Shown here: positions 10,873 through 38,273 of the stretch, one piece after another | How positions within the stretch are numbered: the first letter of the stretch is position 1 | How the letters are laid out: every line of letters begins with the position of its first letter | IMG/VR virus record: IMGVR_UViG_3300025137_000005 | Location: 1 to 38,273 of that record | Strand: one strand, 5' to 3' | Source: a virus | Length of the DNA: 38,273 nucleotides | Notes under the pieces: model-generated | What the model was told of the DNA's origin: nothing | The model's input: the letters and a program-made list of their open reading frames with translations, nothing else | Databases searched by the model: none | Position numbers and translations under genes: made by a program

Positions 10873-10873
10873 A

Positions 10874-11779: not shown

Positions 11780-11792
11780 GGAGAAAAATATT

Positions 11793-12574: not shown

Positions 12575-12577
12575 TGA

Positions 12578-15576: not shown

Positions 15577-15582
15577 TTACTT

Positions 15583-21500: not shown

Positions 21501-24500
21501 CTTAGCTGCAGAACAATTAGCTAACACACAAAAAGATTATCAAACCCAGATAGACACATTAAACTCTAGCTTTGAAACAATAAGGAGTGGTTTGCAAAGT
21601 AGTATTGATACATATTCAGCTAATGAAACTATATATACAAATAATATTACTACACTTAACAATGACTTGAGTATAGCTACAACTAATTACAACAATAAAG
21701 TGCAACAATACAATGCACAGATAGAAGTAAATAATACTAAGCAAACAATTATAGAGTCCTTAGAGGGTCAAGTTGGGGTAATAAGTGCAGAGAATTTACA
21801 ATACATTGAGGACATAGCACAGGCAAAAATTAAACATCAAAATGATCTTGATGGTGCATTTAATAATTACAACACACAGCTTTCTAATACACAAGGTCAG
21901 CTGTCTGCACAATACACAGAAGATTTAAAAACACAAAGAGATGAACTTGAAAGTCAAGCTGCTCAAAACTTAGCTGATGAACAAGATAGATTAGAAGAAT
22001 TAAGACAAAGTGATTTAAATCAAGCTGCAATAGATGCAGAACAAGAATTACAAGACCAATTATCAAGTGCTAGGGCTGATGAACAATTGATAGCCTCTGG
22101 TAATTTAGCTGCAAGAGAAGCTGAGTTAGCAGAAGAGTTTGAGTCAAACTTAGCTGCAAAGCAAGCTGAAGCAGAAGCTAGTTATCAATCACAATTAGCT
22201 GCACAACAAGCAAGTAGTGCTACTACACTCACACAAGAACTTCTTTTATTGCAAACAAGATTGAATGATGAACATAAGGCAGCAATAGATAAGGTTAAAT
22301 TAGATTTACAAGTAGAATACACTAGTAATATAGATGCACAAACTGTTGCTCACAATGATCAATTAACAACATTGAATCAAACTCATGAAGCAGCATTAGC
22401 TGCACAAGCAGCTAGATTGAATAATGAAAGGATACAAGCATTAGCAAGTGCAGAAACATTATCTACTAGTCAAATGCAAACTGTTTTATCTGAACATGCA
22501 ATTGCTTTAACAAATGCTGAGACTGAAGCACAAAATAGATATGATGCAAAGTTAGAAGATGAATTAAATAGTGCTAATGCAAATTACCAAACAGCTTTAG
22601 ATGCTGCACAAAAGGTATCAGATGATTATTTAAATAGTGAAACAGCTAGGTTAAATGGAATAAGGGATACTGAAGCAACAAGAATTTCTAATGAATATGA
22701 AGCACAAATTGATGCTAATACTCAGGAGTATAATGAAAGCTTAGAAACTCTTAACAATGAAAATTTAATTTTACAACAACAAGTAATAGAATTAACTCCT
22801 CCTCCTCCCATGTATTTAGGTGTTGAGGGAGAAGATTACAGGGTGATTGATGAAGAAGAAAGAGCATACCTTGATAATCTTAAGGAAGAAGGCTTAAGTG
22901 GTATAGCTAACAATGCATTAAATCTACCTAGTTTATACAACTATGAAGGCAATGTAGTGTATGATCCAGGTGGTTTTAATGATGAAGACTTGTGGGCTAG
23001 TGACCAAATACAAGAGTTGTATTACAATGGATTCCCACAAACTGAAGAAGAATTAGTGGCATTATTAAAAGCTAATCCAGATATATTTGGAGAAGTAAAC
23101 ACAGATGGTTCTTCTAAAGATGCTAAAGATGACTTAGTTCAAAAAATCAAAGATGGTATAATAGACACAGGATATGCTTTGCAAAGGATTTCTGGGGGTA
23201 AGGTAGGTAGTACATTACTTAATATAGTAGGAATATTTTTTGCAGGTGGTATCCCATTAGGAAGAATAACAAATGCATTAGGAGACATATTTGGGCCAGA
23301 TACATCAATTGAATTAGCAGAAGTATTACAAAGACAAATAAATAATAGAAGAAATTTTTCAGATAATAATATTGTAGATTGGGATGATGTGTATAGATTG
23401 CATGCAGAAGACCTACCAACTTATTTCCCTGATGATTTAACAGACCCAAACCACCCACAAAATATGGCAGGACAAGTAATAGAATCAGATTTAACCACTG
23501 GAGGAGCAAATGTATCAGGGCCAGGGGGAACAAATGTAACAGGCACAACATCATATAGTGATGTAGATTTAGGAGATCCTACAGATTACCTTTATCAAAT
23601 ATTAAGAATAACTGAGGGGCCAGAAGTTGCTGAATCATTCAAGGGTAAGGGTATGTCTGATCCGGAAGGCTTTGGATTAATAGCTAAATACTTAGATCAA
23701 ACTACAATTGATGCAGCCATTAGGTCTAATGCAATAGATGAGATAGCCTTATTTGGTACAGATGAACAAAGAGGTAGCATAGACATACAAGGAGAAGCAG
23801 CACAAAAGATACAAGATATAGCACAATCCTTAAGGGAAGACCAAGCATTATCTGACATTGAACTTATCAAGAAGTATGGTTCAGAAGCTGCTGAAGCTAT
23901 AAAGGGGCTTGATCCAGAAAGATTAGAGCAACAAAGCATGCTCCAACTTCTTGCTAAAACTAGATTGAATGAAGCATTAGACTTTGACCCAGAGGTTTTA
24001 CCACAAGAAAAACTTATTGGTGAAGCATCAACTAATTTATTACAAGATGTAAGAGGTGAATCAATGATTGAGAAAGCAGTTAAGACTGCAGCACTTGGTC
24101 AATTAGATGTATCTCTTACTCCTGAAGAAGCAGCTATAAGGGAGAGGTCATTAGATTATCTAAGTAATGCAGGTAAACTATCTGATTTAGAACAACAAGA
24201 AATCAAGGACAACATTAACACAGGTTTGATGTCAAGAGGTAGGATGGATTCAGACTATGGTCTTATGCAACAAATCTTGGGTAGAACAGAGGCTGAGTTA
24301 GATAGAGAAGATAGAGATATAACTATGGGTCTTGGTTTGTATGGTGAGTTTGACAACTTGTATGGTGGTAGATTAGCTAGAGGTGCAACATTAGGCACAG
24401 CTGGTGAGTCACTTACATCTGCAAGAATGAATGACAATAGAGCAAATGTTGCTGCTGGTACAGAATTAGTTGGACAATTGTATAACTTTGAAAACAATAG

Positions 24501-25050: not shown

Positions 25051-25057
25051 TTTTATT

Positions 25058-26251
25058 ATGGCTTTAACAAACTTAACTTCTGCACCTTCACAACAATTAG
25101 CAACACCTAGCTATGATGCCTTATTTCAAGGCACAGCTCAAGGTGAGGCTGCTAAAATGGCTGGTGCTAAATTTCAAGCAGACAGTATTAGGGAAGGTTT
25201 GCAAAATTTTGAAAAGAATCAGCAGTTATTATCCAAGCACATGGGTATATTCCAGGGTGCTATAACTACTAACCCAGAATTTAAATCAGCTATTGAGAAC
25301 TTAGATCCAAAGTCTGATATGGGTAAAGCTGTACAAGAAGCTTCAAGGGGTAATGCTTCTCTTACTAGTATGTTAGCTCTATCCAACTTTGCTTCTGAGT
25401 ATGGTGCAGGTGAATTAGCACAAACACAAATGGCACAAGCTGAACAAGTTACAAAAGGTTTAAAATTAGAAAACAATGCTGCACAACAAACAGAAAATGT
25501 TATTGATATGTTGGATAATTTAATAGGTACAGATGGTTTAATCAATCCAGCCAAAATATCACAAGCAGTAGATGATGCAAGGAAGTTGGGTAATGTACAA
25601 GATGGTTTTCTTACAGCATTAAATCAACAACTAGAGGTTTACAATAACATGGGTATGATTAAAAAACCTTTAGTAGAACCACAGATAACACCTGTATATG
25701 TAAACCCAGATGATAAAACAAGTGAATTAAAAGCTTATGTAGTATCAGATAATAATGGGAGACCTGTAACTACAATTGACATTACTAATGACCAAATTGA
25801 TTATACAACTGAAGGACAGGTGAATGGGTTTTTAAGAACAATTGAGGCACTTAGTAAATTAACAGGCAGTGATGGAGAGCCTTTATATACTGGTGCTGAA
25901 TTAGCAACTCTTAGAAAAAATGGCATTAATGACATAGTTCGCAAAGGTGATGCTAGTAGTAATAATGCTGTGGGACAAGCATACAACATAGTATTAAATC
26001 AGTTCAATCAAACACCATACATCAATGGTAAACCTAATCCAACTTTTTGGAATGAGGTAACAAGAATAATTAAGTTAAAACTTCAAGGTGTAAAGTTGTC
26101 TCCAGAAAAAGTTCAACAAACTATGGATCAATTTATTAATTCAATAATGGTTGAACAAGGCATTACAGATATAAATGAATTAGATAGAATACAAGCTAAT
26201 GCTACAGACTCATTAATTAAAGCTCAAAGTTCTAATTCAGGTTGGGAGTAG
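25058..26251 (+). CDS. Putative internal virion/ejection protein, 397 aa
   Basis: I start at ATG 25058, seven bases after the giant gene's stop; the frame is open further upstream to 25013 but that would overlap the giant gene. The protein is helical, Ala/Gln/Asn-rich, without Cys or a membrane span, and begins MALTNLTSAPSQQLATPSYD. Composition and position between the giant protein and the LPD38-like protein fit a DNA-ejection protein that travels with the genome into the cell. I see no transglycosylase motif. No clear Shine-Dalgarno is visible. Confidence 0.65.
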   Translation: MALTNLTSAPSQQLATPSYDALFQGTAQGEAAKMAGAKFQADSIREGLQNFEKNQQLLSKHMGIFQGAITTNPEFKSAIENLDPKSDMGKAVQEASRGNASLTSMLALSNFASEYGAGELAQTQMAQAEQVTKGLKLENNAAQQTENVIDMLDNLIGTDGLINPAKISQAVDDARKLGNVQDGFLTALNQQLEVYNNMGMIKKPLVEPQITPVYVNPDDKTSELKAYVVSDNNGRPVTTIDITNDQIDYTTEGQVNGFLRTIEALSKLTGSDGEPLYTGAELATLRKNGINDIVRKGDASSNNAVGQAYNIVLNQFNQTPYINGKPNPTFWNEVTRIIKLKLQGVKLSPEKVQQTMDQFINSIMVEQGITDINELDRIQANATDSLIKAQSSNSGWE

Positions 26252-26253
26252 TT

Positions 26254-29200
26254 ATGATTAAACCTAAGTTTGATGCAAGTAAACCTTATGAAGATTTACC
26301 CAACAAGGGTGGATATGCAATAAGAACTCAAGGTGGATTTGAGTACAAAAAATTATTAGATACACCCTTAGAAGAACCTAAAGAAATAGAGGTAGAGGTA
26401 GTAGAAGATAGAACTAGACCTAATCCATTTGAATTGGATATGACTACTTATGATAAAGCTAGGCAAAACATAGATGCTATCTTAAATTATGAAGAGCCTA
26501 ATCAACCAGGGCTAGGTGATTTTGCAGGTGCTTTGGCTATAGAAGCTGGTTACAATATGGCAGGTAGAGCTGGAGGCATGGGTCTTGGTATGCTTACTGG
26601 CCCAGCAGCACCTATTGCAGTACCAGTATTGGGCTTCATTGGTAATGGTGTTGGTGCATTTTATGGTAGTATGAAAGCACAAGAACATTTAGGTTTAGAA
26701 GTATCATATGGTAGAGCCCTGTTAGACACAGCTATATCCTATAATCCATTTGGAACAATGGCAAAGGGTGCTAAATATGCCACTAAATATGGTAAGAATT
26801 TAACAACTAAGACAGCACAGAAGCTTACTACTCAAAAAATTATAAGCAAAGGTTTTGAAAACCAAGTAAATACATTTGCACAAGCTACTGAAACTATAGC
26901 AAACAAAGCTTTAAGTAACCAAAACTTAGTTAGAATAGGTGGCAACATTGGCATTGGTGGTACATATGGATCTTTCCGGCAACTAGGTGAAGATGAAACT
27001 AGGATGGGTGCTATCTTCCAGGATGCATTATATAGTGGTGTACTTGGAGAATTGTTTAAAGGTGGTGGCAAGGTAGTTTCAAAATCTGCAGAGAAGGTAA
27101 AGAATTTAACTGTAAGAGAATTTGATGAAGCAATAAGAAGGGGTGACAAACATCCAACCATTATAAAAAATATTTTAGATGGTAACTTAACTAATAAAGA
27201 TAGTGAGTTTGCTAAGAAATTATCTAGAGGCATCATGAGTTTAAAGACTCAATTTAGTGATCAATATGAATACATAAGATTACTATCTAAAGAAGGTGGG
27301 GGTAATGATTACTTTAGAAAGAATGGTGTACTGTCTAGCACAGGTGATCATGATAGACCATACCAGGCATTTAGGTTAGTTAGACCATTACAAGAAAGAA
27401 AAAAATCTATTATAAATAAAGAAGTTAATTTACTTAATGATGCAACAAAACAATTTTCATATAAGAATAGTGTATCCAATGATGATTTCAGGGAGGATGT
27501 ATCTAACTTGTTGTATGCAAAACATTTACTTGATGTAAATAAAAATGTAAAAAGTAAGAAGGGTGAGTTTGCTTCAGGGACTAGTGATGAAAGGTTAAAA
27601 TCAATAATAACAAACATTGAATCCAAGCCTTACTTCAAGGATGTTCAGAGAGTAGCTGTTGAAGTTAAGGGAGTATCTGACCAGATATTAAAACAAGCTG
27701 TTGAAACAGGTATGATAAGTAAGGCTGCAGCAAATAACCTTAGAAAAAAATATCCCAACTATGTGCCTACACATAGGGAAATTAAGATGGATGACATTCC
27801 TAATACTAAGAGAACATCATACCCTATTAATAAGAGTGCACCTGTTTCATTACAACAAAGGACTAAAAGTAAGCTAAAGCCAGGTAAAAGAAAATCTGTT
27901 TTTGATAATGTTAGAGATGCAAACATAGATATGATCATGAAAGGTGAAAAGAATGTAGCCATGAATGCATTAGCTAGATCTATGCAACTAAGTAAAGCTG
28001 GTCAATTGGGTGTGATAAAAACTGTGAAACTATATGACTCAAAAGGCAATAAGATAAAAGATCCATATAAATCTAATGGCATACCATTTAATAATTTTGG
28101 AAAAAATTTCCAAATAGAAGTAAAAGATCCATTATTATTGGACACACTAAGAGGTATGAGCATAGAAAAAGGTGCTGCTATGTTTAACTTTGCAGAGTTT
28201 ATGACTACTACATTATCTAGTTTAAATAAATTTCAAGGTGCACAGCTTACAGGGTTAAGCCCTGACTTCCAGTTAGCTAATTTATTTAGGGATAGGGGTG
28301 AAGCATTCTTTCAAGCTATGTCTAAGATGAATACTAGGGAGGCAGCAAGCTTACTTAACCCCAAGGTTTTGGGTGAAGATATATTTGGTATCATTAGGGG
28401 CCGGATGCCAAATAAAAAAATGACAAAAATAGATTCTGAGTATTTGTTATTCCAAGATTCTGGTGGTGGTAATGTGTCTGGGTTACTCTCTTCATCACTT
28501 AATGATCTAAAGGGCACACTAGAAGGAATGAATTTTAATGCCAATAAAGTTGGGGGTAACTTTAACAAAAATGCAAGATCTGTTTTTAATGGTATATCTA
28601 TGATCAATGATATATTTGAACAATCATCTAGGTTTGCTACATTTAGGGCAGCAAGAAAGTCTGGTATGACTGCCAAGGAATCAGCATTAGCAGCAAGAGA
28701 TTCATCATTTGACCCACTACAAAGGGGTAGTAAGAGTAATCTTCTGAGTGCAGCTTATATGTTTGCTAATCCAGCTTTACAATCAACCAAAAATTTCTTT
28801 AGAAGAATGGATTTGACTCAGCCACAAAACAGAAAGGCTACTACTACTATGATGACTGGTTGGTTCTCATTAAACACAATGCAAAACCAATGGAATGATA
28901 ATGTTATTGGTGAAAACTGGAGAGAAGAATTTAAAGCTTCATTACCTGATTCATATGCTGAGTATACACTAAACAATCACATTATATTTGCTAACCCATT
29001 TGTAGGTGAAGGTGAAACAAAAAGAAAATTTATTAAATTACCTGTGCCTTACTCACAAGTACCAGCAAAACTTATAACTGATGGTACATCTAGGTTATTA
29101 TTTGATGAAAGATATAGGGAAAGTGGTGCTGCTTCTTTATTGTTTGGTAGAACTTTAGATTCAATATGGAGTAACATGAGCCCTGTTCCTAGAGGTTACA

Positions 29201-30198
29201 TACCTACAGTTATGCATAATGCATTGGGTACAATGGGTGTATTTGTAGATGAAAATCAATTTGGACAAAAGATTAAAAGGTGGACACCACCAAGGTCAGA
29301 GTCAGGAGTACCATACACAAACAAAGAACTAAAACAAATAGCAACAGCAAAGGATATGGTGCCAGTAGGATTTGATGACAACATGTATGGGAGGTTTTTA
29401 ATTAAAGCTACTGACTATGTGAACACTGTACTATCAGAGGATGAAGCTACATTAATGACACCTGAAACATTAAAGTTTGGTTTTGAATCTTACTTTCCTT
29501 TGCTTACTAAAACTACACCAAAAGTTCTAGGAGATTTAAGTGATCTATTTAATGCTATTAGTTATGGTAAAGTGGATACAATAGATGCAACAAAATTGAC
29601 TGGCCTAAGAAGATTCTTTGGTGAGCTACCTATATCTAAAGCATCAGAGATACTAGATGTTCAAGCAAATAGCAAAGCAGATACAAAAGAGTTTTTCTTA
29701 GCATCCAATGATAATAAAAGAGATTTTAAATTCTTAACATCTGAGTATAGAAAATTGCAAAACAATCCTAAGACTGAAGAGAAAGATGTTATGTTGTTTA
29801 ATCAAAAACTTTTAGAGATGACTGAAGGTAGACCTAAGTTGAATGACAAATTCTTAGAGTATGTACAGGAATATAAGATAGGTGTTGATACATTTGCAGA
29901 GTCTTCATTCAAAAGACTTAGTGCTGCAAAGAAAGCACAAAAATATGTTTCACATATTAAAACATTAACTGTTCCTGGTGACCCTAAACAAACACAACAA
30001 AACATTGGCAAATTTTTTGAAGCAATGTCTGAGCTAGGTGGTGGGCTAGATGCAAAAAATAACAATATGTTTAATGAGGATATACAAAAGTATATGAGAA
30101 TCAAAATGGATTTAGAATCCAATCCAGCATTCCAAGAAATGTCTCCATCACAAAGGCAAGAGACAATAGGTGCTGCTTTTGATAGAGTAAAGTATTAG
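26254..30198 (+). CDS. Large ejection-type/polyvalent protein, about 1314 aa (LPD38-like region)
   Basis: I use ATG 26254, which has GGGAG (26244-26248) five bases upstream; a TTG at 26242 is the longer option. Residues about 87-145 are Gly/Ala-rich and hydrophobic (LTGPAAPIAVPVLGFIGNGV), suiting membrane insertion. A segment ending MISKAAANNLRKKYPNYVP (about residue 500) and GAQLTGLSPDFQLANLFRD (about 665-685) match the pattern I associate with the large polyvalent protein-associated domain 38. The protein is probably carried in the virion and ejected with DNA. It is the last gene of the rightward arm. Confidence 0.7.
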   Translation: MIKPKFDASKPYEDLPNKGGYAIRTQGGFEYKKLLDTPLEEPKEIEVEVVEDRTRPNPFELDMTTYDKARQNIDAILNYEEPNQPGLGDFAGALAIEAGYNMAGRAGGMGLGMLTGPAAPIAVPVLGFIGNGVGAFYGSMKAQEHLGLEVSYGRALLDTAISYNPFGTMAKGAKYATKYGKNLTTKTAQKLTTQKIISKGFENQVNTFAQATETIANKALSNQNLVRIGGNIGIGGTYGSFRQLGEDETRMGAIFQDALYSGVLGELFKGGGKVVSKSAEKVKNLTVREFDEAIRRGDKHPTIIKNILDGNLTNKDSEFAKKLSRGIMSLKTQFSDQYEYIRLLSKEGGGNDYFRKNGVLSSTGDHDRPYQAFRLVRPLQERKKSIINKEVNLLNDATKQFSYKNSVSNDDFREDVSNLLYAKHLLDVNKNVKSKKGEFASGTSDERLKSIITNIESKPYFKDVQRVAVEVKGVSDQILKQAVETGMISKAAANNLRKKYPNYVPTHREIKMDDIPNTKRTSYPINKSAPVSLQQRTKSKLKPGKRKSVFDNVRDANIDMIMKGEKNVAMNALARSMQLSKAGQLGVIKTVKLYDSKGNKIKDPYKSNGIPFNNFGKNFQIEVKDPLLLDTLRGMSIEKGAAMFNFAEFMTTTLSSLNKFQGAQLTGLSPDFQLANLFRDRGEAFFQAMSKMNTREAASLLNPKVLGEDIFGIIRGRMPNKKMTKIDSEYLLFQDSGGGNVSGLLSSSLNDLKGTLEGMNFNANKVGGNFNKNARSVFNGISMINDIFEQSSRFATFRAARKSGMTAKESALAARDSSFDPLQRGSKSNLLSAAYMFANPALQSTKNFFRRMDLTQPQNRKATTTMMTGWFSLNTMQNQWNDNVIGENWREEFKASLPDSYAEYTLNNHIIFANPFVGEGETKRKFIKLPVPYSQVPAKLITDGTSRLLFDERYRESGAASLLFGRTLDSIWSNMSPVPRGYIPTVMHNALGTMGVFVDENQFGQKIKRWTPPRSESGVPYTNKELKQIATAKDMVPVGFDDNMYGRFLIKATDYVNTVLSEDEATLMTPETLKFGFESYFPLLTKTTPKVLGDLSDLFNAISYGKVDTIDATKLTGLRRFFGELPISKASEILDVQANSKADTKEFFLASNDNKRDFKFLTSEYRKLQNNPKTEEKDVMLFNQKLLEMTEGRPKLNDKFLEYVQEYKIGVDTFAESSFKRLSAAKKAQKYVSHIKTLTVPGDPKQTQQNIGKFFEAMSELGGGLDAKNNNMFNEDIQKYMRIKMDLESNPAFQEMSPSQRQETIGAAFDRVKY

Positions 30199-30260
30199 TA
30201 GGTGGTTGAAATAGGGAATGAAATAACCCCAACTAGCATCTTAATAGCCAGACTACCTAC
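30198..30260. other. Convergent junction with an inverted repeat
   Basis: Only about 58 bases separate the stops of the rightward and leftward arms. GTAGGT (30198-30203) is complementary to ACCTAC (30255-30260) across the gap. There is no T-run typical of an intrinsic terminator, so collision or factor-dependent termination is more likely. I see no gene here. Confidence 0.5.
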
Positions 30261-31561
30261 AAAGTATTTGAAACAAAGTCTCTTATCCTACAACAGGGTT
30301 TGATGAATTCAAAATCTCCATCAGCATAGCTCTGACCTGCTCTTTGTTTGGGCCGGCACCATCTTAATTTTGTAGCATGAAAATCATCTGTCTTAAGTGT
30401 GTACAGAAATGTTACAGAGTCAGCATCCCTTTCAAGTGATGCACTATCACCTAGATCTGATAGCCTTGGCTGCCTATCTTCTTTCTCTGACTCTCTATTT
30501 AATTGTGCTACTACTATAATTGGTATCTTTAATTGTCTAGCCAAAGACTTGAGTGACCTAGATATGCCTGAGATTTGCTCATCTCTTCTTATGCCTTCAC
30601 CTTTCATTAGTTGTATGTAGTCTACAACCATAAGTTTCATATCAAATTTTCTTTTCCAGTACCTAGCTTTTGATGCAATCTTCTCAAAGGTATCTCCCCT
30701 TTCATCTATAAGTATATCTAGTTTAGATACTTTTTCTAATGCATCATTGAACTTATCTAAATTACTTTTGGTAGCTACCTTGTCATAGATTTGTTGCACT
30801 TGCACACCAGATAATGTTGAGCATATCTTCTCAATGAGTTCATCATCACCCATTTCCAAACTAAAAATACCTACAGCTTTGTCATCAAGTGCTGCTCTTA
30901 ATGCTACATTCATAGCAAATGTTGTCTTACCTCTGCCTGGTCTAGCAGCAACAATACATATTTGTCCTGGCCCAAAGCCTCCTCTCTTCAAGGATTTATC
31001 ATAGCTTTCTATACCAGTAGGTATGTACTCATTGGAATCATTGGAGTAAACATTTTCTTTTACCCTCTCTATAGTATCTACTATATTAAAGTCATCACTG
31101 TAGGATAGGTTGATCTTAGATACACTAGTTTCAAGTGATGCACAAAGTGTTTCTGAATCAACTGATTGGCTAACTGCAGATTCAATTGATAGCCTGCATG
31201 ATCTAATAAGTTCTCTTAATTTAGATTTCTCTTTTACTTGTTGAGCAGCCCACCTACCTTTTACACCTGTTGTGCTTGTCTCTAATACTTGATAGATATA
31301 AGTGAGCCCACCTACAGTTCCTTCATCTCCATTAATTCTTAGCCTTTCAAGTAAGCTAATCTCATCTAAAGCTTCACCTTTAAGTGCAAGCTGTTTGATT
31401 GTAGCAAATAAAATCTTATGTGTTTCATAAAAAAAATCTTGCTCATGGACAATTTGTGATAGCTCATCAAACTTAGAGCCATCAGAAAAATGTAAACATG
31501 AAGCCAGAACAATTTGTTCTGACTCCATGCTACTAGGTAAATCAGAAGGGGATGTTGTCAT
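30257..31561 (-). CDS. dnaB: Replicative DNA helicase, DnaB type
   Basis: The 434-residue protein has an N-terminal helical domain (MESEQIVLASCLHF onward) and a RecA-type ATPase. The Walker A motif is ARPGRGKTT near residues 205-213, and Walker B is LMVVDYIQLM near 309-318. Near the C-terminus QRAGQSY and FIKP recall the DnaB Arg-finger and end regions. Helicases of this family unwind DNA at the fork. With no phage polymerase or primase visible, it would load the host replisome on phage DNA. It overlaps the SSB-like gene by 20 bases and ends the leftward operon. Confidence 0.94.
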   Translation of the reverse strand: MTTSPSDLPSSMESEQIVLASCLHFSDGSKFDELSQIVHEQDFFYETHKILFATIKQLALKGEALDEISLLERLRINGDEGTVGGLTYIYQVLETSTTGVKGRWAAQQVKEKSKLRELIRSCRLSIESAVSQSVDSETLCASLETSVSKINLSYSDDFNIVDTIERVKENVYSNDSNEYIPTGIESYDKSLKRGGFGPGQICIVAARPGRGKTTFAMNVALRAALDDKAVGIFSLEMGDDELIEKICSTLSGVQVQQIYDKVATKSNLDKFNDALEKVSKLDILIDERGDTFEKIASKARYWKRKFDMKLMVVDYIQLMKGEGIRRDEQISGISRSLKSLARQLKIPIIVVAQLNRESEKEDRQPRLSDLGDSASLERDADSVTFLYTLKTDDFHATKLRWCRPKQRAGQSYADGDFEFIKPCCRIRDFVSNTL

Positions 31562-31775
31562 TGACCACTTCTTTTTCCTGGGGTTTCTTTTCCTGCATTT
31601 CAGAGAACTTTACATTGTAGTAAACCTTACCATCTTTTGATTCAGCTTTCCACATTGCTAGTCTATACTCCTTGCCTTCAATGTTGCAAGGGCCGGATGC
31701 TATTGGATGTTTGTCAGACTTTGGGTCTGGATCAGGGAACACCCTACCTGTGTTTAGTTTTATTTCTGTTGTCAT
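31542..31775 (-). CDS. Small SSB-like protein, 77 aa
   Basis: The 77-residue protein is predicted to be mostly beta (KEYRLAMWKAESKDGKVYYN), followed by a charged linker and a final DNIPF. That last pentapeptide is close to the acidic tip by which bacterial SSB recruits partners (DDDIPF). Size, tip and position between the ERF and DnaB genes support a minimal ssDNA-binding or replication accessory protein. It overlaps the ERF gene by four bases (ATGA). The OB fold is inferred, not demonstrated. Confidence 0.6.
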   Translation of the reverse strand: MTTEIKLNTGRVFPDPDPKSDKHPIASGPCNIEGKEYRLAMWKAESKDGKVYYNVKFSEMQEKKPQEKEVVNDNIPF

Positions 31776-32215
31776 AGTAAATCTTGTTTTGGTTTGTCCT
31801 TACCATGGGTGTTGGTTGCATCTGGATCCTTAGTATCATCAATGGCAAACAAACCATTCAATGCATACTTTCTAGCATAGGAACTAGCTGAACCAGTTAT
31901 CTGTGCTGCATCCATACCTTTTTTATCTTCTGCTTCTCTTGCATAAGCAGTTACAGATACATGTTCATCATTGCTATCAAGCAAGGTAGCTTGTGCCATT
32001 ACATAGTGCCTTTCTCCAACTGCTTGGATTGTGTCACTTAAAACAAGAGAACAACCTATCTCTTTTAGGAGAGGTTTAGCTGACTCTTGGATGTCTTCAG
32101 CAGATCTATATCTATAGTTGCCGAACTTATTTAGCTGGCCCTTTGGGGCTTTTAAGTTCACCTGTAAAAAGTGTAACTTAGCTCTTATGTTTTGTTTTAT
32201 TTCTTTTTCTTCCAT
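31772..32215 (-). CDS. erf: ERF-family single-strand annealing recombinase
   Basis: The 147-residue protein carries the ERF hallmark: a conserved GSASSYARKYALNGLFAIDD block at about residues 107-126, preceded by strands with VMAQATLLDSNDE. ERF proteins anneal complementary single strands and, in phages, circularise or concatenate genomes. The nearby RecB/Cas4-like nuclease, the SSB-like protein and the endonuclease VII-like protein complete a recombination module. It ends with a charged tail that overlaps the next gene, and its start overlaps the upstream HNH gene by 38 bases. Confidence 0.92.
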   Translation of the reverse strand: MEEKEIKQNIRAKLHFLQVNLKAPKGQLNKFGNYRYRSAEDIQESAKPLLKEIGCSLVLSDTIQAVGERHYVMAQATLLDSNDEHVSVTAYAREAEDKKGMDAAQITGSASSYARKYALNGLFAIDDTKDPDATNTHGKDKPKQDLL

Positions 32216-32654
32216 AAAATTCTTTCTTTAAAAACTTAGAGTAAAGAACTACCCTTTGACTTAAGTTAGTGCAAGCATTTATTTCATTCATACTAAATCC
32301 TAACTGCACTAATGCAAACTCCTGGTCTCCTTTTTTTAATCTTTTAAACCTACTCATAAGTTGTTTACAACCAACAGGATGCAGGAAATCTGTCTTTGAA
32401 TGCATGAGATAATTTGATATAGCAATCATTACATTACCTATATCTTCTCTCTTACCTTTGCACATACTATAATAAATGTTTTCTATCTTACCAATTAAAG
32501 TGTTAGCTTCCCTACAAATTACTCCTCTGATCATACCAGTTTTATGGTCATGGTCTACACAAAAATCCTTATAACTTTCACCTAGTATTGGGCATCCTTT
32601 AGGTTCATTTGAAATTCTCCAAGCCTGTAATTTATTTGCTGGTATATATTTCAT
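32178..32654 (-). CDS. Endonuclease VII-like HNH nuclease, 158 aa
   Basis: Residues 32-51 (CVDHDHKTGMIRGVICREAN) match the His-Me finger core of the recombination endonuclease VII family, which resolves branched DNA. In that family a zinc is held by two Cys-x-x-Cys pairs. Here only one Cys of each pair remains (C21 in CPILGE and C47 in ICREAN); the partners are Leu24 and Ala50. The catalytic DHDH motif is intact. The C-terminal 90 residues are helical and basic. It probably acts on concatemers or recombination junctions before packaging, or is a homing-type nicking enzyme. Confidence 0.82.
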   Translation of the reverse strand: MKYIPANKLQAWRISNEPKGCPILGESYKDFCVDHDHKTGMIRGVICREANTLIGKIENIYYSMCKGKREDIGNVMIAISNYLMHSKTDFLHPVGCKQLMSRFKRLKKGDQEFALVQLGFSMNEINACTNLSQRVVLYSKFLKKEFYGRKRNKTKHKS

Positions 32655-32842
32655 TTGATTCTTTCAACACCTATCACCTTTAACTTTGCTCCTTTTTTAT
32701 TAACAGAAATGTCACCAACTTTTGATGCCTTGTGTGTCACAAATTTAATTGCTTCCTTCTCTGTGTTTGCCCACTTGCTTACACATGATGTGTGCTCTGG
32801 TGGCATCTCTAAATTCTTATAGTAAATTACATATTGATTCAT
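32651..32842 (-). CDS. Hypothetical protein, 63 aa
   Basis: This small mixed alpha/beta protein overlaps both neighbours by four bases (ATGA). It has one Cys and a charged C-terminus (KKGAKLKVIGVERIK). The layout of an N-terminal strand followed by a helix with WANTEKEAIKFV recalls small phage proteins that act as accessory factors. I recognise no family. Membership of the recombination cluster is context only. Confidence 0.75.
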   Translation of the reverse strand: MNQYVIYYKNLEMPPEHTSCVSKWANTEKEAIKFVTHKASKVGDISVNKKGAKLKVIGVERIK

Positions 32843-33270
32843 GTAAATTTTATTATCCGGCCTAAGTTAATATCTACCTCATAAAAATGTTCACCCTCTG
32901 GCATTGCTTGAGTAGATTTCTCAATTACTTTTGAGTTTTTAATTACATCTTCATGTAATCTTATGAACCTAGTAAGCCCATGATTCCATGTGAACACCAA
33001 GGTTGGCATGTCTTGGTTAAAAAACTTTCTCTTCCTGTGTGGTATATGTAAATATCTATATGGAAAATCACCATCATTATCCCACATGAATCTTCTCTCA
33101 ACCTCAATGTAACAAAGGCCAGGAACAATTAGATCAACACCATAAATATTTGGATTGTCTTCTGCATCATAGCCATGCCTACCTACATAGTATTTGGTCA
33201 CAGTTTTAGCTGGTGCATCAGCTTCCTCATGCAGCTTGGGGTCAAATTTTTTGTTGTTACTTATAATCAT
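32839..33270 (-). CDS. Hypothetical protein, 143 aa, possibly PD-(D/E)XK-like
   Basis: The centre reads NIYGVDLIVPGLCYIEVERR at about residues 41-60, followed by FPYRYLHIPHRKRKFF. An Asp then Glu-x-Glu on adjacent strands, followed by a basic segment, is reminiscent of the PD-(D/E)XK nuclease core, though the catalytic Lys is not at the usual position. It is sandwiched by a nuclease and the endonuclease VII-like gene, with four-base overlaps. A nuclease, or a non-catalytic relative, is the best guess. Confidence 0.7.
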   Translation of the reverse strand: MIISNNKKFDPKLHEEADAPAKTVTKYYVGRHGYDAEDNPNIYGVDLIVPGLCYIEVERRFMWDNDGDFPYRYLHIPHRKRKFFNQDMPTLVFTWNHGLTRFIRLHEDVIKNSKVIEKSTQAMPEGEHFYEVDINLGRIIKFT

Positions 33271-34022
33271 TCATTCATCCAATCCATGTAATAAATTTGC
33301 CTGAGTAATCTAAATCTCTTGATGCCCTTTCTTAACTGTGCCTTGCTCCAGTTCTTATGATAATGTTTCTGTGTTTCAGTACAAATGCACACACTAGTGA
33401 TGGCCGGAAAGTAATTCAATTCAAATTCTTCCTTGATCCACATTGATTCAATAGCAAGTTGAGAACAATCTTTCTTCTCATAAAACTTACCACCTGAACC
33501 CTTAGTATCTCTGCATTTGTAATCAAATAGATGATACTTACCATCCCACATTGCAACTAAGTCAATGCTACCAGCACTTCTCTCTTTGTCAGAGACTGCT
33601 ATCTTTTCACACTCAATAACCTCAATGTTATTGTCTTCTATAAAATCTAAGAAGGGCTCAACCCATCCATCCCAGGGTGTTTCATTTTCTTTTAACCCTT
33701 CATTAGTTATCCTATTGTTTAATACATCTTCAAGTCTACCATGCACAGCTGTGCCAAACTCATTTGATCTAATAGGCATACCATCAATGGGACTTGTTCG
33801 ATACCCATACTTGATGTCCATGATTTGCCTGGATGTAGCTTCAGGGTGCTGCCTAGCTAAGTCACAAATTTTTTGAGGGATCCAGATGTTGTGTAAGTAA
33901 TCCTCCATTTGTATGCCCAATATAGTAGTAACACTTGGGTATGCTTTTATTTTCTTAGCTTGGCTTGGGGTTCTAGCACTGGTAAGCTTGGGGCTACCAC
34001 TACAATCATAAAAATGGCTCAT
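33267..34022 (-). CDS. PD-(D/E)XK exonuclease, RecB/Cas4-like
   Basis: The 251-residue protein shows AGSIDLVA (about residues 151-158) followed by HLFDYKCRD (about 165-173), the Gly-x-x-Asp and Asp-x-Lys signature of RecB-family nucleases, with a helical QLAIESMW segment behind it. Such enzymes resect DNA ends. Together with ERF it forms an exonuclease/annealing pair comparable to lambda exo/beta in role. Length fits the phage subfamily. It starts three bases after the 21-residue ORF upstream. Confidence 0.85.
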   Translation of the reverse strand: MSHFYDCSGSPKLTSARTPSQAKKIKAYPSVTTILGIQMEDYLHNIWIPQKICDLARQHPEATSRQIMDIKYGYRTSPIDGMPIRSNEFGTAVHGRLEDVLNNRITNEGLKENETPWDGWVEPFLDFIEDNNIEVIECEKIAVSDKERSAGSIDLVAMWDGKYHLFDYKCRDTKGSGGKFYEKKDCSQLAIESMWIKEEFELNYFPAITSVCICTETQKHYHKNWSKAQLRKGIKRFRLLRQIYYMDWMNE

Positions 34023-34025
34023 AAA

Positions 34026-34091
34026 TTACTTCATCTTTTTCTTAATCTTTTTCTTTGCTACTTTTTTAGATACTATTTTCATTGTTCTCAT
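34026..34091 (-). CDS. Tiny Lys-rich ORF, 21 aa
   Basis: ATG at 34091 overlaps the upstream stop (ATGA) and reads MRTMKIVSKKVAKKKIKKKM plus one Lys before TAA. The next gene begins three bases later. Position in a tightly coupled operon suggests it is translated, either as a basic peptide or as a coupling device for the nuclease. There is no homology to report, and chance is possible at this length. Confidence 0.4.
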   Translation of the reverse strand: MRTMKIVSKKVAKKKIKKKMK

Positions 34092-34450
34092 AACTCATCC
34101 ATGTCCATGATGTATTGTGCTACATCTCTGACATCATCTCTCCTAGTTTCTTTAGAGTAAGGGTGATCACATATGAATTGGTCACTCCTGTATACATAAA
34201 CATCATCATCTCCATACTCAAACTTGAGTCTGTTATCTATGATGAAGTTTAATATTGATTCATCAGTTCTAGGTGGTAACTCAACAGGATTCTTTATCAT
34301 GTAATAGTCACCATCCAATAGGTTGGTCACATAACAATCCCTAAAGTCACCACTCCTTGATTGTTTCAACACAATCTTCTGATCATCTAATCCCTGGGCT
34401 GGCCCATCCGGGAATTGCCATAAGGCTAATTTATGTGGTGGATTTTTCAT
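34088..34450 (-). CDS. Hypothetical protein, about 120 aa
   Basis: I prefer ATG 34450 (MKNPPHKLALWQFPDGPAQG); the frame is open upstream to a GTG at 34519. The protein is acidic with Trp and Pro in the first 20 residues and an Asp-rich C-terminus (DDVRDVAQYIMDMDEL). The possible internal promoter at 34464-34491 fits the shorter start. I recognise no family. It lies between the AT-hook gene and the nuclease module. Confidence 0.65.
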   Translation of the reverse strand: MKNPPHKLALWQFPDGPAQGLDDQKIVLKQSRSGDFRDCYVTNLLDGDYYMIKNPVELPPRTDESILNFIIDNRLKFEYGDDDVYVYRSDQFICDHPYSKETRRDDVRDVAQYIMDMDEL

Positions 34451-34463
34451 TTCACTATTTGTA

Positions 34464-34491
34464 TTTGTAATTATTTTTATTTCATTGTCAA
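34464..34491 (-). promoter_or_regulatory. Weak candidate internal leftward promoter
   Basis: On the minus strand a perfect TTGACA (34491-34486) is followed after 16 bases by TACAAA (34469-34464), a weak -10. It would start transcripts just before ATG 34450. The -10 is poor, and AT-rich DNA gives such matches by chance, so this is tentative. Confidence 0.3.
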
Positions 34492-34565
34492 GGTTTGTAT
34501 TGCAAGCAGCATCATACACATCATAAATATGTATAAGGATACAAACAAACCAAATATTATTGATC

Positions 34566-34733
34566 TCACTTGAAGATTTGATTGTACCAGTTGGAAGGTA
34601 CTGGAATAAGAACCTTACTATCTTTACCTAAGTGATCAATAAGCTGATCAACAGAGATTAATATTTCTCTAGGTTTATTCTTACCACCCTTTGGTCTACC
34701 AAGTTTCTTAATAGGTGTCATTAATGTATTCAT
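34566..34733 (-). CDS. AT-hook-like small protein, 55 aa
   Basis: ATG at 34733 has GGAG six bases upstream and overlaps the end of the upstream gene by 26 bases. It reads MNTLMTPIKKLGRPKGGKNK, then a folded-looking ILISVDQLIDHLGKD segment, and ends at TGA 34566-34568. LGRPKGGKNK is an AT-hook-like DNA-binding motif. An early regulator or nucleoid-type DNA-binding role is plausible. It occupies a stretch that would otherwise look non-coding. Confidence 0.65.
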   Translation of the reverse strand: MNTLMTPIKKLGRPKGGKNKPREILISVDQLIDHLGKDSKVLIPVPSNWYNQIFK

Positions 34734-34995
34734 TTATTTCTCCTTCTATTTTTTGTTTATGTGCATAGGACATTGGATAGTCATGACTCTTTATGAATCT
34801 AATCTCTTCAATATCCCAATCATCTAGTTCTATTTCTTGCCAACTCTCTGATACTGATTGCTCTCCATGCATGCTAGTGCATTCACAGTTAGTAATGGTG
34901 TAGTTAGCATTTACTTTTATATCAATAAATTTATTGTGCTCAATTTCTAAGTCACAAAAATCTATGGTCTCATTGTGTTCTCCTGGTTCTCTCAT
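34708..34995 (-). CDS. Hypothetical acidic protein, 95 aa
   Basis: I start at ATG 34995, which overlaps the methyltransferase stop (ATGA) and has AAAGGA six bases upstream; a longer frame to 35037 would run into the methyltransferase. The protein is acidic, with three Cys in the first half (FCDLEIEH, TNCECTSMHG) and a C-terminal EIELDDWDIEEIRF motif. Such small acidic early proteins often inhibit host enzymes, but that is only a suggestion. No family is recognised. Confidence 0.68.
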   Translation of the reverse strand: MREPGEHNETIDFCDLEIEHNKFIDIKVNANYTITNCECTSMHGEQSVSESWQEIELDDWDIEEIRFIKSHDYPMSYAHKQKIEGEINEYINDTY

Positions 34996-35894
34996 TTTAT
35001 TCCTTTCAATATTTGTGCTACTGTATCTACTTGCCACCCATCACCTAACAAACCAGCAGCTTGGTTTCTAGTGATTGGTAAGGTGTATCCAATGGGCACA
35101 CCTTGGGCTCTCTCAAGTTCAATCCTAGACATGACCCTCAAGTCATTCTCTTTGGCCAGAGTATAATCCCTTTTGAGTTTGTCATGTGTAGCCTTGTCCC
35201 TGAAGATCACATTGCCAAACCCTACCTTGAAGAATCTTCTAGCAAGTTTGACTAGATCTGTATTAGGTCTTGAGTCACTTTCTAGTAGGCATGTGCCATA
35301 CTTTCTAGGACTATATGGTGTTACTAGGCTAGGATTACCTTTCTCTATTATGCATGAGAAGTGAGGTGCAATCTTATGTTGCATCCACTCCTTCACATTA
35401 TCAAGTGGTATGTTTGTCCAGTATAACCTTTTCCTATATACACCTGTTGCTATGTAACTATCAATGAAGATTGGCTCAACACCTACTTCCTTAGATATAA
35501 TGTCTTGTTGGTCTTGCTTCATTCTCACATTTTCTAGCAACCAATACTTAGGTTGAAGTTTATTTCTCCAATGTAGCCATGTCCAAAAGAGCTTAGACTT
35601 GTCACCATCTAGTCCCTTTCTTGTATGTCTATTTGCTATACTGAAATTTTGACAAGGTGATCCACCCATGAATAGGTCAACCTTCCCTGGTTCTATGTCT
35701 TGCAATATAGTTTCCCCTAAATCTAACACACTACCTAGTTGTATAGTCCTGGGAAAGTTTTCTTGAGTCACCTTGATTGCATCTTTCTTTATCTCACTTG
35801 CAAGATAGGTGTCATAATGTAGGCCGGCTTTCTTTAAAGCTAGTTGACCACATGACATGCCATCAAAGAGACTTACTACTTTCATATTATTCAT
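34992..35894 (-). CDS. DNA (cytosine-5) methyltransferase, Dnmt3-like
   Basis: I start at ATG 35894, which overlaps the previous stop (TAATG) and has AAGGA just upstream; the open frame extends to 35939. The 300-residue enzyme shows the C5 methyltransferase motifs in order: I SLFDGMSCG (8-16, SAM binding), IV GGSPCQNFS with catalytic Cys81, VI ENV (121-123), VIII YRKRLYW (153-159) and a C-terminal ERAQGVPIGYT...GLLGDGWQV. The SIANRHTRKGL segment after the catalytic loop, and Gly-Asp-Gly-Trp in place of the usual Gly-Asn-Ala of motif X, resemble the Dnmt3 branch rather than standard Dcm enzymes. Its target site is unknown; CpG is the obvious candidate. No restriction partner is visible. Confidence 0.93.
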   Translation of the reverse strand: MNNMKVVSLFDGMSCGQLALKKAGLHYDTYLASEIKKDAIKVTQENFPRTIQLGSVLDLGETILQDIEPGKVDLFMGGSPCQNFSIANRHTRKGLDGDKSKLFWTWLHWRNKLQPKYWLLENVRMKQDQQDIISKEVGVEPIFIDSYIATGVYRKRLYWTNIPLDNVKEWMQHKIAPHFSCIIEKGNPSLVTPYSPRKYGTCLLESDSRPNTDLVKLARRFFKVGFGNVIFRDKATHDKLKRDYTLAKENDLRVMSRIELERAQGVPIGYTLPITRNQAAGLLGDGWQVDTVAQILKGIK

Positions 35895-36022
35895 TATGTC
35901 CTTTCTAGTTTCACATCTGTATATCCTTTTTGCTTCCATTCCATCATTGCAATTTCAGCATCAATTAAATTTGTGTAGTGGTTGTCAATACCACCCACCC
36001 ATACTATCCATTTTTTACTCAT
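35894..36022 (-). CDS. Small hypothetical protein, 42 aa
   Basis: ATG at 36022 reads MSKKWIVWVGGIDNHYTNLI, then DAEIAMMEWKQKGYTDVKLE and two further residues, ending at TAA 35896-35894, which overlaps the methyltransferase start. The VWVGG...A...W..KGYTDVKLER pattern resembles a small beta-alpha-beta phage protein I have seen repeatedly, of unknown function. Coupled translation implies it is made with the methyltransferase. It may be a partner, but nothing shows that. Confidence 0.68.
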   Translation of the reverse strand: MSKKWIVWVGGIDNHYTNLIDAEIAMMEWKQKGYTDVKLERT

Positions 36023-36023
36023 A

Positions 36024-36362
36024 TCAATCTAGACCATCTATGAATTGGTGTACTAGTAGCACACCTCTCCTATCATAGCCTCCTATGTTCCAATCAAATA
36101 TATTCTTTCTCTCTGGTGCACCATCTCCATTGTATGACTTACCATTCTTCCAATTATATATGGTTGTAGTTATAATATTCTCACCATCTACAAATTGCAG
36201 CCTCCATTCTGCATCTGTTTTGTAGCCATCTCCATCACTTGGTTTCCCAAATGCCTGAACAAGTCTATGGAAGTCACATCTTATGTGTCCCTGTAGACAT
36301 GTGCCACTAGTCTCAATGTATGGACTAGCATGTACTTTTATATCTTCTTTTATCATAATCAT
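36024..36362 (-). CDS. Hypothetical protein, 112 aa
   Basis: The sequence looks globular, with CLQGHIRCDFHRLVQAFG near residues 22-39, a GDGYKTDAEWRLQF segment, then TTTIYNWKNG and WNIGGYDRRGV. The YKTDAEW...IYNWK...WNIGG spacing is one I associate with a widespread phage protein of unknown function. Met3 (36356) is an alternative start. The stop lies just before the ATG of the next gene. It may be a fold with nucleotide or RNA affinity, but there is no direct evidence. Confidence 0.72.
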   Translation of the reverse strand: MIMIKEDIKVHASPYIETSGTCLQGHIRCDFHRLVQAFGKPSDGDGYKTDAEWRLQFVDGENIITTTIYNWKNGKSYNGDGAPERKNIFDWNIGGYDRRGVLLVHQFIDGLD

Positions 36363-36391
36363 TTTTATTTATTCTATTTTATTTTTTATTA

Positions 36392-36586
36392 TTATTTAAC
36401 CATGTCAAATACTTTATTCTCTATTTTCTCTAGAAATATACTTATCTTAGCTAGTTCCCATCTTTCTTCCCTGGATACTTTACCTCTTATTTTATTATTA
36501 ATTATTTGTAGTCTTACAACTAGCTCACTTATCTCACCCTCAAGCACTAAGCCTTTGAGTTCTCTGAATTTTTCTTCTTCATTCAT
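36392..36586 (-). CDS. Hypothetical helical protein, 64 aa
   Basis: This charged, almost entirely helical protein has heptad-like spacing of Leu/Ile (LVVRLQIINNKIRGKVSREE) and no Cys. It begins five bases after the previous gene's stop. It could be a small dimerising early protein. No family is recognised, and the helical composition alone does not suggest a function. Confidence 0.68.
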   Translation of the reverse strand: MNEEEKFRELKGLVLEGEISELVVRLQIINNKIRGKVSREERWELAKISIFLEKIENKVFDMVK

Positions 36587-36591
36587 AATCT

Positions 36592-36810
36592 TTAATACCC
36601 TTCCTCATCTTCTTTTTTTCTATCCATATGTTGTTCATAGTCATACCCTGTTTGTACTTCAAGTATGTCATTGAGTGCTTCTATGTTATATCCATTGATG
36701 GCTGTAACTAGGGAAATTTCTTTCTCTGTTGCTATGCCCATCTCTAAGATGAACTCATGTATGTCATCTCTTTCTTTCTCATAGTTAGTATGTATTATTC
36801 TTTCTTCCAT
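36592..36810 (-). CDS. Hypothetical protein, 72 aa
   Basis: The middle reads IATEKEISLVTAINGYNIEA followed by LNDILEVQTGYDYEQ, a pattern I recognise from small phage proteins (an I-NGY...L-DIL...TGY module) with no assigned role. The C-terminus is a charged tail (DRKKEDEEGY). It sits in the early operon, right after a 28-residue ORF. Confidence 0.72.
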   Translation of the reverse strand: MEERIIHTNYEKERDDIHEFILEMGIATEKEISLVTAINGYNIEALNDILEVQTGYDYEQHMDRKKEDEEGY

Positions 36811-36811
36811 T

Positions 36812-36898
36812 TTATTTCTTTGGTTCCGGATTGGGTATTTTCTTTGCCCAATCTTGTATTTTCTTCATCATCATTTTTTCTATTTCTTTATTGTTCAT
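36812..36898 (-). CDS. Tiny basic ORF, 28 aa
   Basis: ATG at 36898 reads MNNKEIEKMMMKKIQDWAKK, then IPNPEPKK and TAA. It is placed three bases after the upstream stop and one base before the next ATG, so it exactly fills the gap between two genes. That tiling supports expression. An amphipathic helix followed by a Pro-rich tail is all that can be seen. Confidence 0.5.
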   Translation of the reverse strand: MNNKEIEKMMMKKIQDWAKKIPNPEPKK

Positions 36899-36901
36899 AT
36901 C

Positions 36902-37093
36902 TTATTGGGTTACTAGTTCATCTATATGTAAGAAGCCTGGCCCATTATCTTCAGGGTCTTGGCATATTACTAGTGTGTACTTTGGTTGATTTGGTTTGCT
37001 AATAGTGAAGGTAGGTCTTGCATCATACCCCTCCCCTATGATTCTGAAGTTGGATAATTTCCAACCATTGAGTTGTTTGTAGTGATTTTCCAT
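36902..37093 (-). CDS. Hypothetical protein, 63 aa
   Basis: The small globular-looking sequence contains GWKLSNFRIIGEGYDARPTF and TLVICQDPEDNGPGFLHI, probably a small beta domain. It starts five bases after the coiled-coil gene ends. I do not recognise the family. Its compact form suggests an accessory protein rather than a structural one. Confidence 0.7.
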   Translation of the reverse strand: MENHYKQLNGWKLSNFRIIGEGYDARPTFTISKPNQPKYTLVICQDPEDNGPGFLHIDELVTQ

Positions 37094-37098
37094 AAATT

Positions 37099-37308
37099 CT
37101 ATTTGCTTATTGTTATCAATTCTTCCCTGATTTCCATGATCTCATTCTCTACCTTTGATAGTCTTATCTTGTTATAGTATATCTCATTCTCTATTGTCAT
37201 GGCTCTTTGTTCTAGTTCCCTTATTTTTTCTTCTAGCTTAGTATTGTGCACCTTTGCATCATCTAAGATTAGTTTCTTTCTTGCTTTTATTATTTCTTGT
37301 AGTGCCAT
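37099..37308 (-). CDS. Short coiled-coil protein, 69 aa
   Basis: The whole protein after residue 15 is heptad-like (LEEKIRELEQRAMTIENEIY and continuing), so it is probably a dimeric or trimeric coiled coil. There is no catalytic residue pattern. Coiled-coil early proteins often bridge host factors, but nothing specific is visible. Confidence 0.68.
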   Translation of the reverse strand: MALQEIIKARKKLILDDAKVHNTKLEEKIRELEQRAMTIENEIYYNKIRLSKVENEIMEIREELITISK

Positions 37309-37445
37309 AATTTTATTCTTTTCATTTTGTTAGTTGTCCTGGGCCGGATTTTTTTCCATGCTTGGTAAAATATATCTTTGATTTTCTTGAGCAGCATCTC
37401 TCTCTTGATGGCTCTTGTCATTTTTTTGAGTGTTGCTTTGTGCAT
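37290..37445 (-). CDS. Small basic ORF, 51 aa
   Basis: ATG at 37445 reads MHKATLKKMTRAIKREMLLK, then KIKDIFYQAWKKIRPRTTNK and a Lys-rich end, with stop TAA 37292-37290. It overlaps the coiled-coil gene start by 19 bases and would be the first gene after the terminator hairpin at 37466-37490. Strong basicity suggests nucleic-acid contact. No Shine-Dalgarno is visible, so the ORF may be fortuitous, but without it about 140 bp would be unexplained. Confidence 0.42.
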   Translation of the reverse strand: MHKATLKKMTRAIKREMLLKKIKDIFYQAWKKIRPRTTNKMKRIKLWHYKK

Positions 37446-37465
37446 ATGATTTTTTTTATTAGGTT

Positions 37466-37490
37466 AAAAAGCATGGTGCATTAGCACCAT
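37466..37490 (-). terminator. Leftward terminator or attenuator after the first early gene
   Basis: On the minus strand ATGGTGC (37490-37484) and GCACCAT (37479-37473) form a perfect 7-bp stem with a four-base loop, followed by GC and five T (37470-37466). The stem overlaps the stop codon of the 96-residue gene. It would attenuate transcription from the early promoters, raising the first gene relative to the rest, or be regulated by an antiterminator. Confidence 0.62.
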
Positions 37491-37771
37491 ACTTGAGATT
37501 TTACAAAAGCAATGTCATCTTTTTTTCTACCTATAAGCATTTCTAAACTTGCTTGCTTATGTGTTATGGGGTTTTCATTGATGATCATATTTTCATTATG
37601 CTCAACAATTCTTGCCTCTATGATTTCATTGCTAGATTTTTTTCTTGATGTGTCATTAATTATCCTAGATCTTTTGAAGCTTCTTCTAGGTTTTAAATTC
37701 CTAGTGAAAGCCCATTGAGGATTGCTATTCCAATTAAAGAAACATCTAGTTTTTTTACTAGTTTGTCTCAT
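37481..37771 (-). CDS. First early gene, hypothetical basic protein, 96 aa
   Basis: This is the first gene of the leftward operon, about 55 bases below promoter 1. The N-terminal half is basic and aromatic (FFNWNSNPQWAFTRNLKPRR); the C-terminal half has a helical THKQASLEMLIGRKKDDIAF segment. First-expressed small phage proteins often target host machinery, and a terminator directly after it would allow separate dosage. No family or motif is recognised, so this is position-based inference. Shadow frames overlap on the plus strand, but the minus frame fits the operon and promoter. Confidence 0.62.
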   Translation of the reverse strand: MRQTSKKTRCFFNWNSNPQWAFTRNLKPRRSFKRSRIINDTSRKKSSNEIIEARIVEHNENMIINENPITHKQASLEMLIGRKKDDIAFVKSQVWC

Positions 37772-37828
37772 TTTTATTATTTGATTGTTAAAGAACTTTT
37801 AGCTAAGGCTTTCCTTAAGCTTGATAAT

Positions 37829-37857
37829 AGTATCTTACATTTAATAACACATGTCAA
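37829..37857 (-). promoter_or_regulatory. Leftward early promoter 1
   Basis: On the minus strand a perfect TTGACA (37857-37852) is followed after 17 bases by GATACT (37834-37829), with an A/T-rich stretch directly upstream that could act as an UP element. It faces the first early gene, leaving a leader of about 55 bases. Confidence 0.72.
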
Positions 37858-37951
37858 CTATTTATTTAAATTATTTAAAGTTTTTTTAACTTTATTTTGT
37901 CCAGGGTAGAAGGCCAGGACTAGTGCACAAATGTATACAAAAAATGTGAGC

Positions 37952-37979
37952 ATGATATATTATAAAGACAAGAAGTCAA
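37952..37979 (-). promoter_or_regulatory. Leftward early promoter 2
   Basis: TTGACT (37979-37974) lies 16 bases before TATCAT (37957-37952) on the minus strand, five of six matches to each consensus. The upstream AAATAAATAGTTGAC context is the same as that of promoter 1, so the two are related copies about 120 bp apart. Confidence 0.65.
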
Positions 37980-38036
37980 CTATTTATTTTAGGCCAGAAT
38001 TGGTCAGACTAGTGCACAAATGAGCACCATTAAGAA

Positions 38037-38052
38037 TGTTCCATGTGGAACA
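38037..38052. promoter_or_regulatory. 16-bp palindrome resembling parS
   Basis: TGTTCCATGTGGAACA is palindromic except at its central two bases, and differs from the ParB-binding form TGTTCCACGTGGAACA only by C to T at the central CpG. It may be a ParB or Noc-like site, an operator or an origin element. No parA/parB gene is visible in the window. Confidence 0.45.
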
Positions 38053-38174
38053 ATTGAAACCATTTTGAAACCATAAAAGCAATGTCAATGCATTGCACTT
38101 TCAAGAAATAAAAGGAAGGCTCAAAGTAGTGAACAAAAAAGTAGTGAACATATGAGCAGGGTGGGGGTGTATTT

Positions 38175-38273
38175 CATTTTCGGCCAGCTCTGCATAGTAT
38201 ATACATAAACCACCCCTTTAAAAAATGGAAAACTCAAGGGATTTTTCATGCATCTCTTATATATAACAAAGAA
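38175..38273. repeat. Terminal direct repeat, right copy
   Basis: This is the exact second copy of bases 1-99. It lies in non-coding DNA, so joining the ends breaks no gene and makes one continuous control region between the leftward and rightward transcription units. Confidence 0.95.

Follow-up and report, generated by a model that had tools for sequence, protein, structure and literature searches.

A DNMT3-like orphan cytosine methyltransferase and the GGCC and CCGG sites that survive in a CpG-poor marine phage genome

The SPR enzyme, one of the multispecific self-methylases of the Bacillus phage SPR/phi3T type, is an orphan phage C5 methylase thought to be protective against host restriction of the GGCC/CCGG type. 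The gene described here is likewise an orphan phage C5 methylase with a putatively protective role, but SPR is placed among canonical enzymes and not on the DNMT3-like branch to which the present enzyme belongs. Phage genes annotated as DNMT3A have already been reported to be frequent in coral viruses (PMC11309003), and an independent prokaryotic origin has been argued for eukaryotic DNMT3 (PMC3227630).

The DNA analyzed (the window) is the whole of IMG/VR record IMGVR_UViG_3300025137_000005, 38,273 nucleotides, and constitutes the complete 38.3-kb genome of a marine phage bounded by exact 99-bp terminal direct repeats. Placement of the phage relied on the terminase large subunit, with which 80 relatives were also retrieved, and further relatives were fetched by the exonuclease (the syntenic ones) and by the ERF protein. 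A major head protein is also encoded. The features that bear on the analysis are as follows.

1..99, no strand: left copy of the exact 99-bp terminal direct repeat
1..8300, no strand: left end with a relaxed CpG purge, from observed/expected (o/e) CpG ratios
1..38273, no strand: genome-wide footprint in GGCC, CCGG and CpG contexts, from site counts and codon shuffles
1390..3051, plus strand: terminase large subunit
30257..31561, minus strand: DnaB-like replicative helicase
31772..32215, minus strand: ERF single-strand annealing protein
32178..32654, minus strand: recombination endonuclease VII (Pfam, 1.2e-9), not a restriction partner
33267..34022, minus strand: exonuclease (phrog_298, 2.3e-15)
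34708..34995, minus strand: 95-aa ORF directly downstream of the methyltransferase, kept in contigs L002 and L003
34992..35894, minus strand: orphan C5-cytosine DNA methyltransferase, 300 aa, of the DNMT3-like phage family phrog_116
38175..38273, no strand: right copy of the exact 99-bp terminal direct repeat

Scans of genome contigs for a host, with the terminase alignment and with the methylase, returned no relatives. The structural module contains a single ORF of 3,155 aa (15583-25050) with many coiled-coil-like repeats, and contig IMGVR_UViG_3300001460_005516 (L206, L218) encodes exonuclease and ERF proteins identical to those of the window.

The longest minus-strand frame of the methylase begins at 35939. 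Because the close homologues on L002 and L003 both start with MNNMKVVSLF, the start was set at the ATG at 35894, yielding an intact ORF of 300 aa with the boundaries given in the first-pass annotation. The protein matches Pfam PF00145 (C5 methylase; E = 3.8e-26, 92.7 bits against a cut-off of 22) and, over nearly its whole length (residues 11-314), PHROG 116 (E = 6.6e-46). It contains motifs I (FDGMSCG), IV (GGSPCQ, with Cys81), VI (ENV, 121-123), VIII (RKR, with R154 and R156) and X (GLLGDGWQV), and its key residues are invariant in an alignment of relatives. By these motifs and the above-threshold PF00145 match, the protein is a C5-cytosine DNA methyltransferase. The first-pass annotation had described motifs I, IV, VI and VIII as intact and the gene as having no restriction partner, and both descriptions hold, the second as far as the ten neighboring ORFs go. 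Pfam and PADLOC searches of the ten ORFs next to the methylase, some of which have no match of any kind, found no restriction endonuclease, such that the cognate endonuclease of a type II restriction-modification methylase is absent from these ten neighbors, and the methylase does look like an orphan gene. The 95-aa ORF at 34708..34995 has no Pfam, PHROG or PADLOC match.

The resemblance to DNMT3 first suggested by motif X extends to the entire enzyme, whose nearest solved relatives are DNMT3A and DNMT3B by sequence, fold and tree. With the single protein as query, phmmer against the PDB ranks DNMT3A (1.7e-22) and DRM (1e-15) ahead of HaeIII (1.6e-6) and HhaI (2e-4), and a 40-row profile against solved structures scores 2e-50 for DNMT3A/B and about 1e-30 for HhaI and HaeIII. 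The AlphaFold2 model (pLDDT 85.8) matches DNMT3B and DNMT3A with Z scores of about 29, as opposed to about 23 for HhaI and HaeIII and 22.6 for 4dkj, a CpG-specific bacterial enzyme. In a quick-search tree of 44 enzymes, for which the HhaI row was entered by hand and the DNMT3 rows were taken from alignments, DNMT3 and the phage DNMT3-like enzymes, including that of the window, form one branch (SH-aLRT 100), with HhaI, Dcm, SPR and the methylases of several sister phages outside it; the enzyme thus does not fall among the ordinary GGCC or CCWGG methylases. Unlike DNMT3A/B, the window enzyme at 300 aa has no room for PWWP and ADD domains, the methylase domain being its sole Pfam match, and its inferred target is not CpG in general.

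The full-length family match and the grouping with family members in the tree assign the enzyme to PHROG 116. Between 354 and 368 records of the phage collection match this family, and DNMT3-like phage methylases are not rare but form a large, common phage family, in which the motif X form LLG(N/D)GW(T/Q)V is ordinary. The Dnmt3 likeness of GLLGDGWQV therefore stands, but not its reading as an oddity of this gene. Members include the enzymes of Psychrobacillus phage Perkons (43% identity to the window methylase), Flavobacterium phage FPSV-S1 (40%), Synechococcus phage S-CBS2 (38%) and Escherichia phage phi92 (35%), which share with it a single domain of about 300 aa, the sequence motifs, a phage-borne gene and the tree branch with DNMT3. 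Neither the near-absence of CpG nor the GGCCRG footprint described below occurs in any of roughly 90 other genomes sampled that carry PHROG 116 enzymes. Phage Perkons itself has three tandem C5 methylase genes (L123, 19035-21988).

The footprint consists of restriction-type sites that survive only in particular flanks. In the window, all 42 GGCC sites are GGCCRG, on exactly one side. The same holds in L002 (17/17), L003 (12/12), L008 (11/11), L009 (5/5), L219 (8/8) and L220 (5/5), making 100 of 100 in seven clade contigs; these sites are not all independent, as some contigs share homologous ones, although each of the 42 in the window occupies a position of its own. As background, GGCCRG makes up 13% of GGCC sites in low-G+C relatives (92 of 709) and 492 of 2,453 in all background contigs. 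In all tested contigs over 7 kb, no other 4-bp palindrome is so strongly restricted in its flanks, and the pattern was found in the window clade only. Similarly, the 23 CCGG sites of the window are all KCCGG in at least one orientation, a requirement that is weak by itself given a background of 80%. Against synonymous-codon shuffles, KCCGG occurs at 2.1 times expectation (22 versus 10.5) and non-K CCGG is missing (0 versus 5.8), with every other CpG context at 0 to 0.15 of expectation. The only GGWCC in the clade sits in GGACCGGC, where it overlaps GCCGG. Very-short-patch repair was considered as a source of the GGCCRG excess and rejected, single-base neighbors such as GGTCAG and GGCTAG not being depleted.

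CpG itself is nearly gone from the window, as was noted at first pass. There are 64 CpG dinucleotides in the 38,273 bp (o/e 0.054), the depletion affects all codon positions, and only 18 of 469 arginine codons are CGN. CpG o/e is 0.02 to 0.11 in contigs of the same clade and 0.4 to 1.1 in sister phages (72 to 77% terminase identity), indicating that CpG depletion is a derived trait of the clade. Avoidance of CpG palindromes alone, accumulated over sites, was rejected as its cause, with non-palindromic contexts being equally purged. The left end of the genome (1-8300) has a CpG o/e of about 0.09 to 0.19, as opposed to 0.02 to 0.05 elsewhere, and L002 behaves likewise. Should the genome enter the cell with its right end, which carries the replication genes, in front, the left end would be the last part to be exposed, possibly at a time when protection is already in place.

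The reading that we favor, with a probability of roughly 0.68, is that the gene encodes a self-methylating, anti-restriction C5 methyltransferase that marks a motif close to 5'-KCCRG-3' (K = G/T, R = A/G) in the DNA of its own phage, the GGCCRG and KCCGG exemptions both fitting this one shielded motif. Such marking would overlap host sites, shielding GGCC as GGCCRG and CCGG as KCCGG. Hosts of the lineage would cut GGCC, GGWCC and CCGG and would also select against CpG more generally, such that markable sites survive and unmarked GGCC and CpG are lost by selection. From the observed purge, the exempt contexts and the kinship of the protein, we infer that the window enzyme and not some other factor makes the exemption, that the motif is approximately as given, and that host nucleases do the purging. 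If the first C were methylated (GGmCC, mCCGG), this would agree with the way in which known GGCC and CCGG endonucleases are blocked; if the second C were, the only CpGs left would be methylated ones. The data fit either position.

The simplest guess at what removes bare CpG is a host nuclease, given that the spared contexts coincide with the putative methylation motif. In its extended form, which we hold only tentatively and consider somewhat doubtful, host defense would act on unmethylated CpG almost irrespective of its flanks, and the phage lineage would have purged CpG while keeping the KCCGG that its DNMT3-like enzyme can methylate. A two-base target of this kind is, to our knowledge, without precedent among restriction systems. 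The proposal at first pass that the enzyme protects the genome from a CpG-directed host nuclease is thus retained in altered form: shielding seems to be limited to KCCGG, and CpGs in every other context were lost, not guarded.

Gene and footprint occur together in only three contigs (the window, L002 and L003), the remaining footprint contigs ending before the methylase locus and the rest of the clade being fragmentary; every methylase-bearing contig of the clade shows the footprint, although the clade amounts in effect to one evolutionary event. A comparison beyond the clade is provided by sister phages of the same lineage. Among those that do not have the window-type enzyme, GGCC is near zero (0 in G030, 2 in C75C1) or has unrestricted flanks (G013). 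Four of them, C75C1, G026, L210 and L212, encode C5 methylases of the canonical type that group together in the tree. These phages resemble the window in lineage, in having a C5 enzyme and in leaving an exempt-CCGG footprint, but their enzymes lie on another branch and the exempt context is CCCGG, which accounts for all CCGG sites in C75C1 (9/9), G026 (11/11), L210 (12/12) and L212 (15/15). CCCGG also makes up 13 of 14 CCGG sites in G034 and 12 of 12 in G023, whose partial contig carries no methylase. The exempt context thus differs with the methylase, which is what one would expect if survival of restriction sites were determined by the phage enzyme. CCGG is likewise present solely as CCCGG across L208-L214. 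Other site losses in the sister phages include the non-palindromic CCTG/CAGG, absent from G030 (L109, L110; 0 of about 146 expected in genes) together with CATG and GGCC; GATC, absent from L087 (which is phage C75C1), G013 and G036 (0 of about 200 expected); and CACTG and GATATC, both missing from C75C1.

It is unlikely that the host alone, through its methylase and nuclease specificities or its codon and dinucleotide habits, produced both footprint and CpG purge, with the phage enzyme incidental. Relatives with no known methylase range in CpG o/e from about 0.02 to 1.5, suggesting that hosts set the CpG level, and L010, a member of the same terminase clade, is CpG-poor (0.19) without the footprint: CCGG is absent from it, its one GGCC does not have the RG flank, its contig lacks sequence at the methylase locus, and it may not have the window-type methylase. 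However, it is difficult to conceive of a host enzyme sparing precisely GGCCRG unless methylation is involved, and in the sister phages the exempt context shifts with the type of phage methylase.

Quite improbable is the view, put forward in the first-pass annotation, that the enzyme methylates CpG broadly and that deamination of 5-methylcytosine to TpG and CpA emptied the genome of CpG. The kinship with DNMT3 is in its favor, as are the TG/CA o/e of 1.27 accompanying the CpG deficit, the somewhat raised frequency of NCA codons relative to NCT, and the replacement of NNC followed by G mainly by TG (23 of about 34 replacements), a predominance that arises because twofold codons force TG. Among clade members, which are about 80% identical in nucleotide sequence, the replacement spectrum nevertheless equals that of the controls: TG and CA make up 37 to 46% of CpG replacements versus 43% transitions at control GC, the most frequent single replacement is CpG to AG, and NCG codons change to CA 13 times, CT 10 times and CC 3 times, in data that are few and partly saturated, such that saturation may hide old deamination. 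Nor are the residual CpGs hypermutable, 65% being shared between pairs as opposed to 67 to 72% for the GC control. An early signal of C-to-T and G-to-A change at fourfold sites showed no excess once A/T baselines, within-clade spectra and codon-phase controls were applied, and the outgroup spectrum, based on the terminase only, was too small and saturated. Broad CpG methylation also fails to account for the over-representation of KCCGG, itself a CpG, in place of its depletion, or for the exemption of GGCCAG, whose CCAG contains no CpG. Moreover, about 90 other genomes with PHROG 116 methylases have CpG o/e values of 0.295 to 1.9, indicating that such an enzyme alone does not empty a genome of CpG. 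As part of the favored reading and at its strength, the CpG poverty probably reflects selection and not deamination of 5-methylcytosine laid down by the window enzyme. No paper describing loss of CpG from a phage through a methyltransferase turned up in literature searches, which yielded only general studies of restriction-site avoidance.

A functional role of GGCCRG and KCCGG, with positive selection for them as, for example, Chi-like or regulatory signals instead of shielded restriction sites, is very improbable: GGCCRG is about 7 times over-represented relative to codon shuffles (37 versus 5.3), but largely because the alternatives have been purged (11 of 13 Gly-Pro codon pairs are GGGCCA followed by G, since GGACC, GGTCC and other GGCC are avoided), its positions vary between clade members, and a positive signal would not require the absence of GGCC from all other contexts.

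These results separate two ideas that are easily merged, namely, kinship with DNMT3 and methylation of CpG. They also suggest a rule for reading phage genomes: where a short site is open to host cleavage and the phage can methylate it in some flanks only, the surviving sites would spell out both the target of the phage enzyme and the nucleases of its hosts, from sequence alone and with no culture. In this phage lineage, two methylase types accompany two footprints. If the tentative part concerning CpG is true, bare CpG is a target of attack in some marine hosts, a form of restriction that would be new and could account for the wide range of CpG ratios among related phages.
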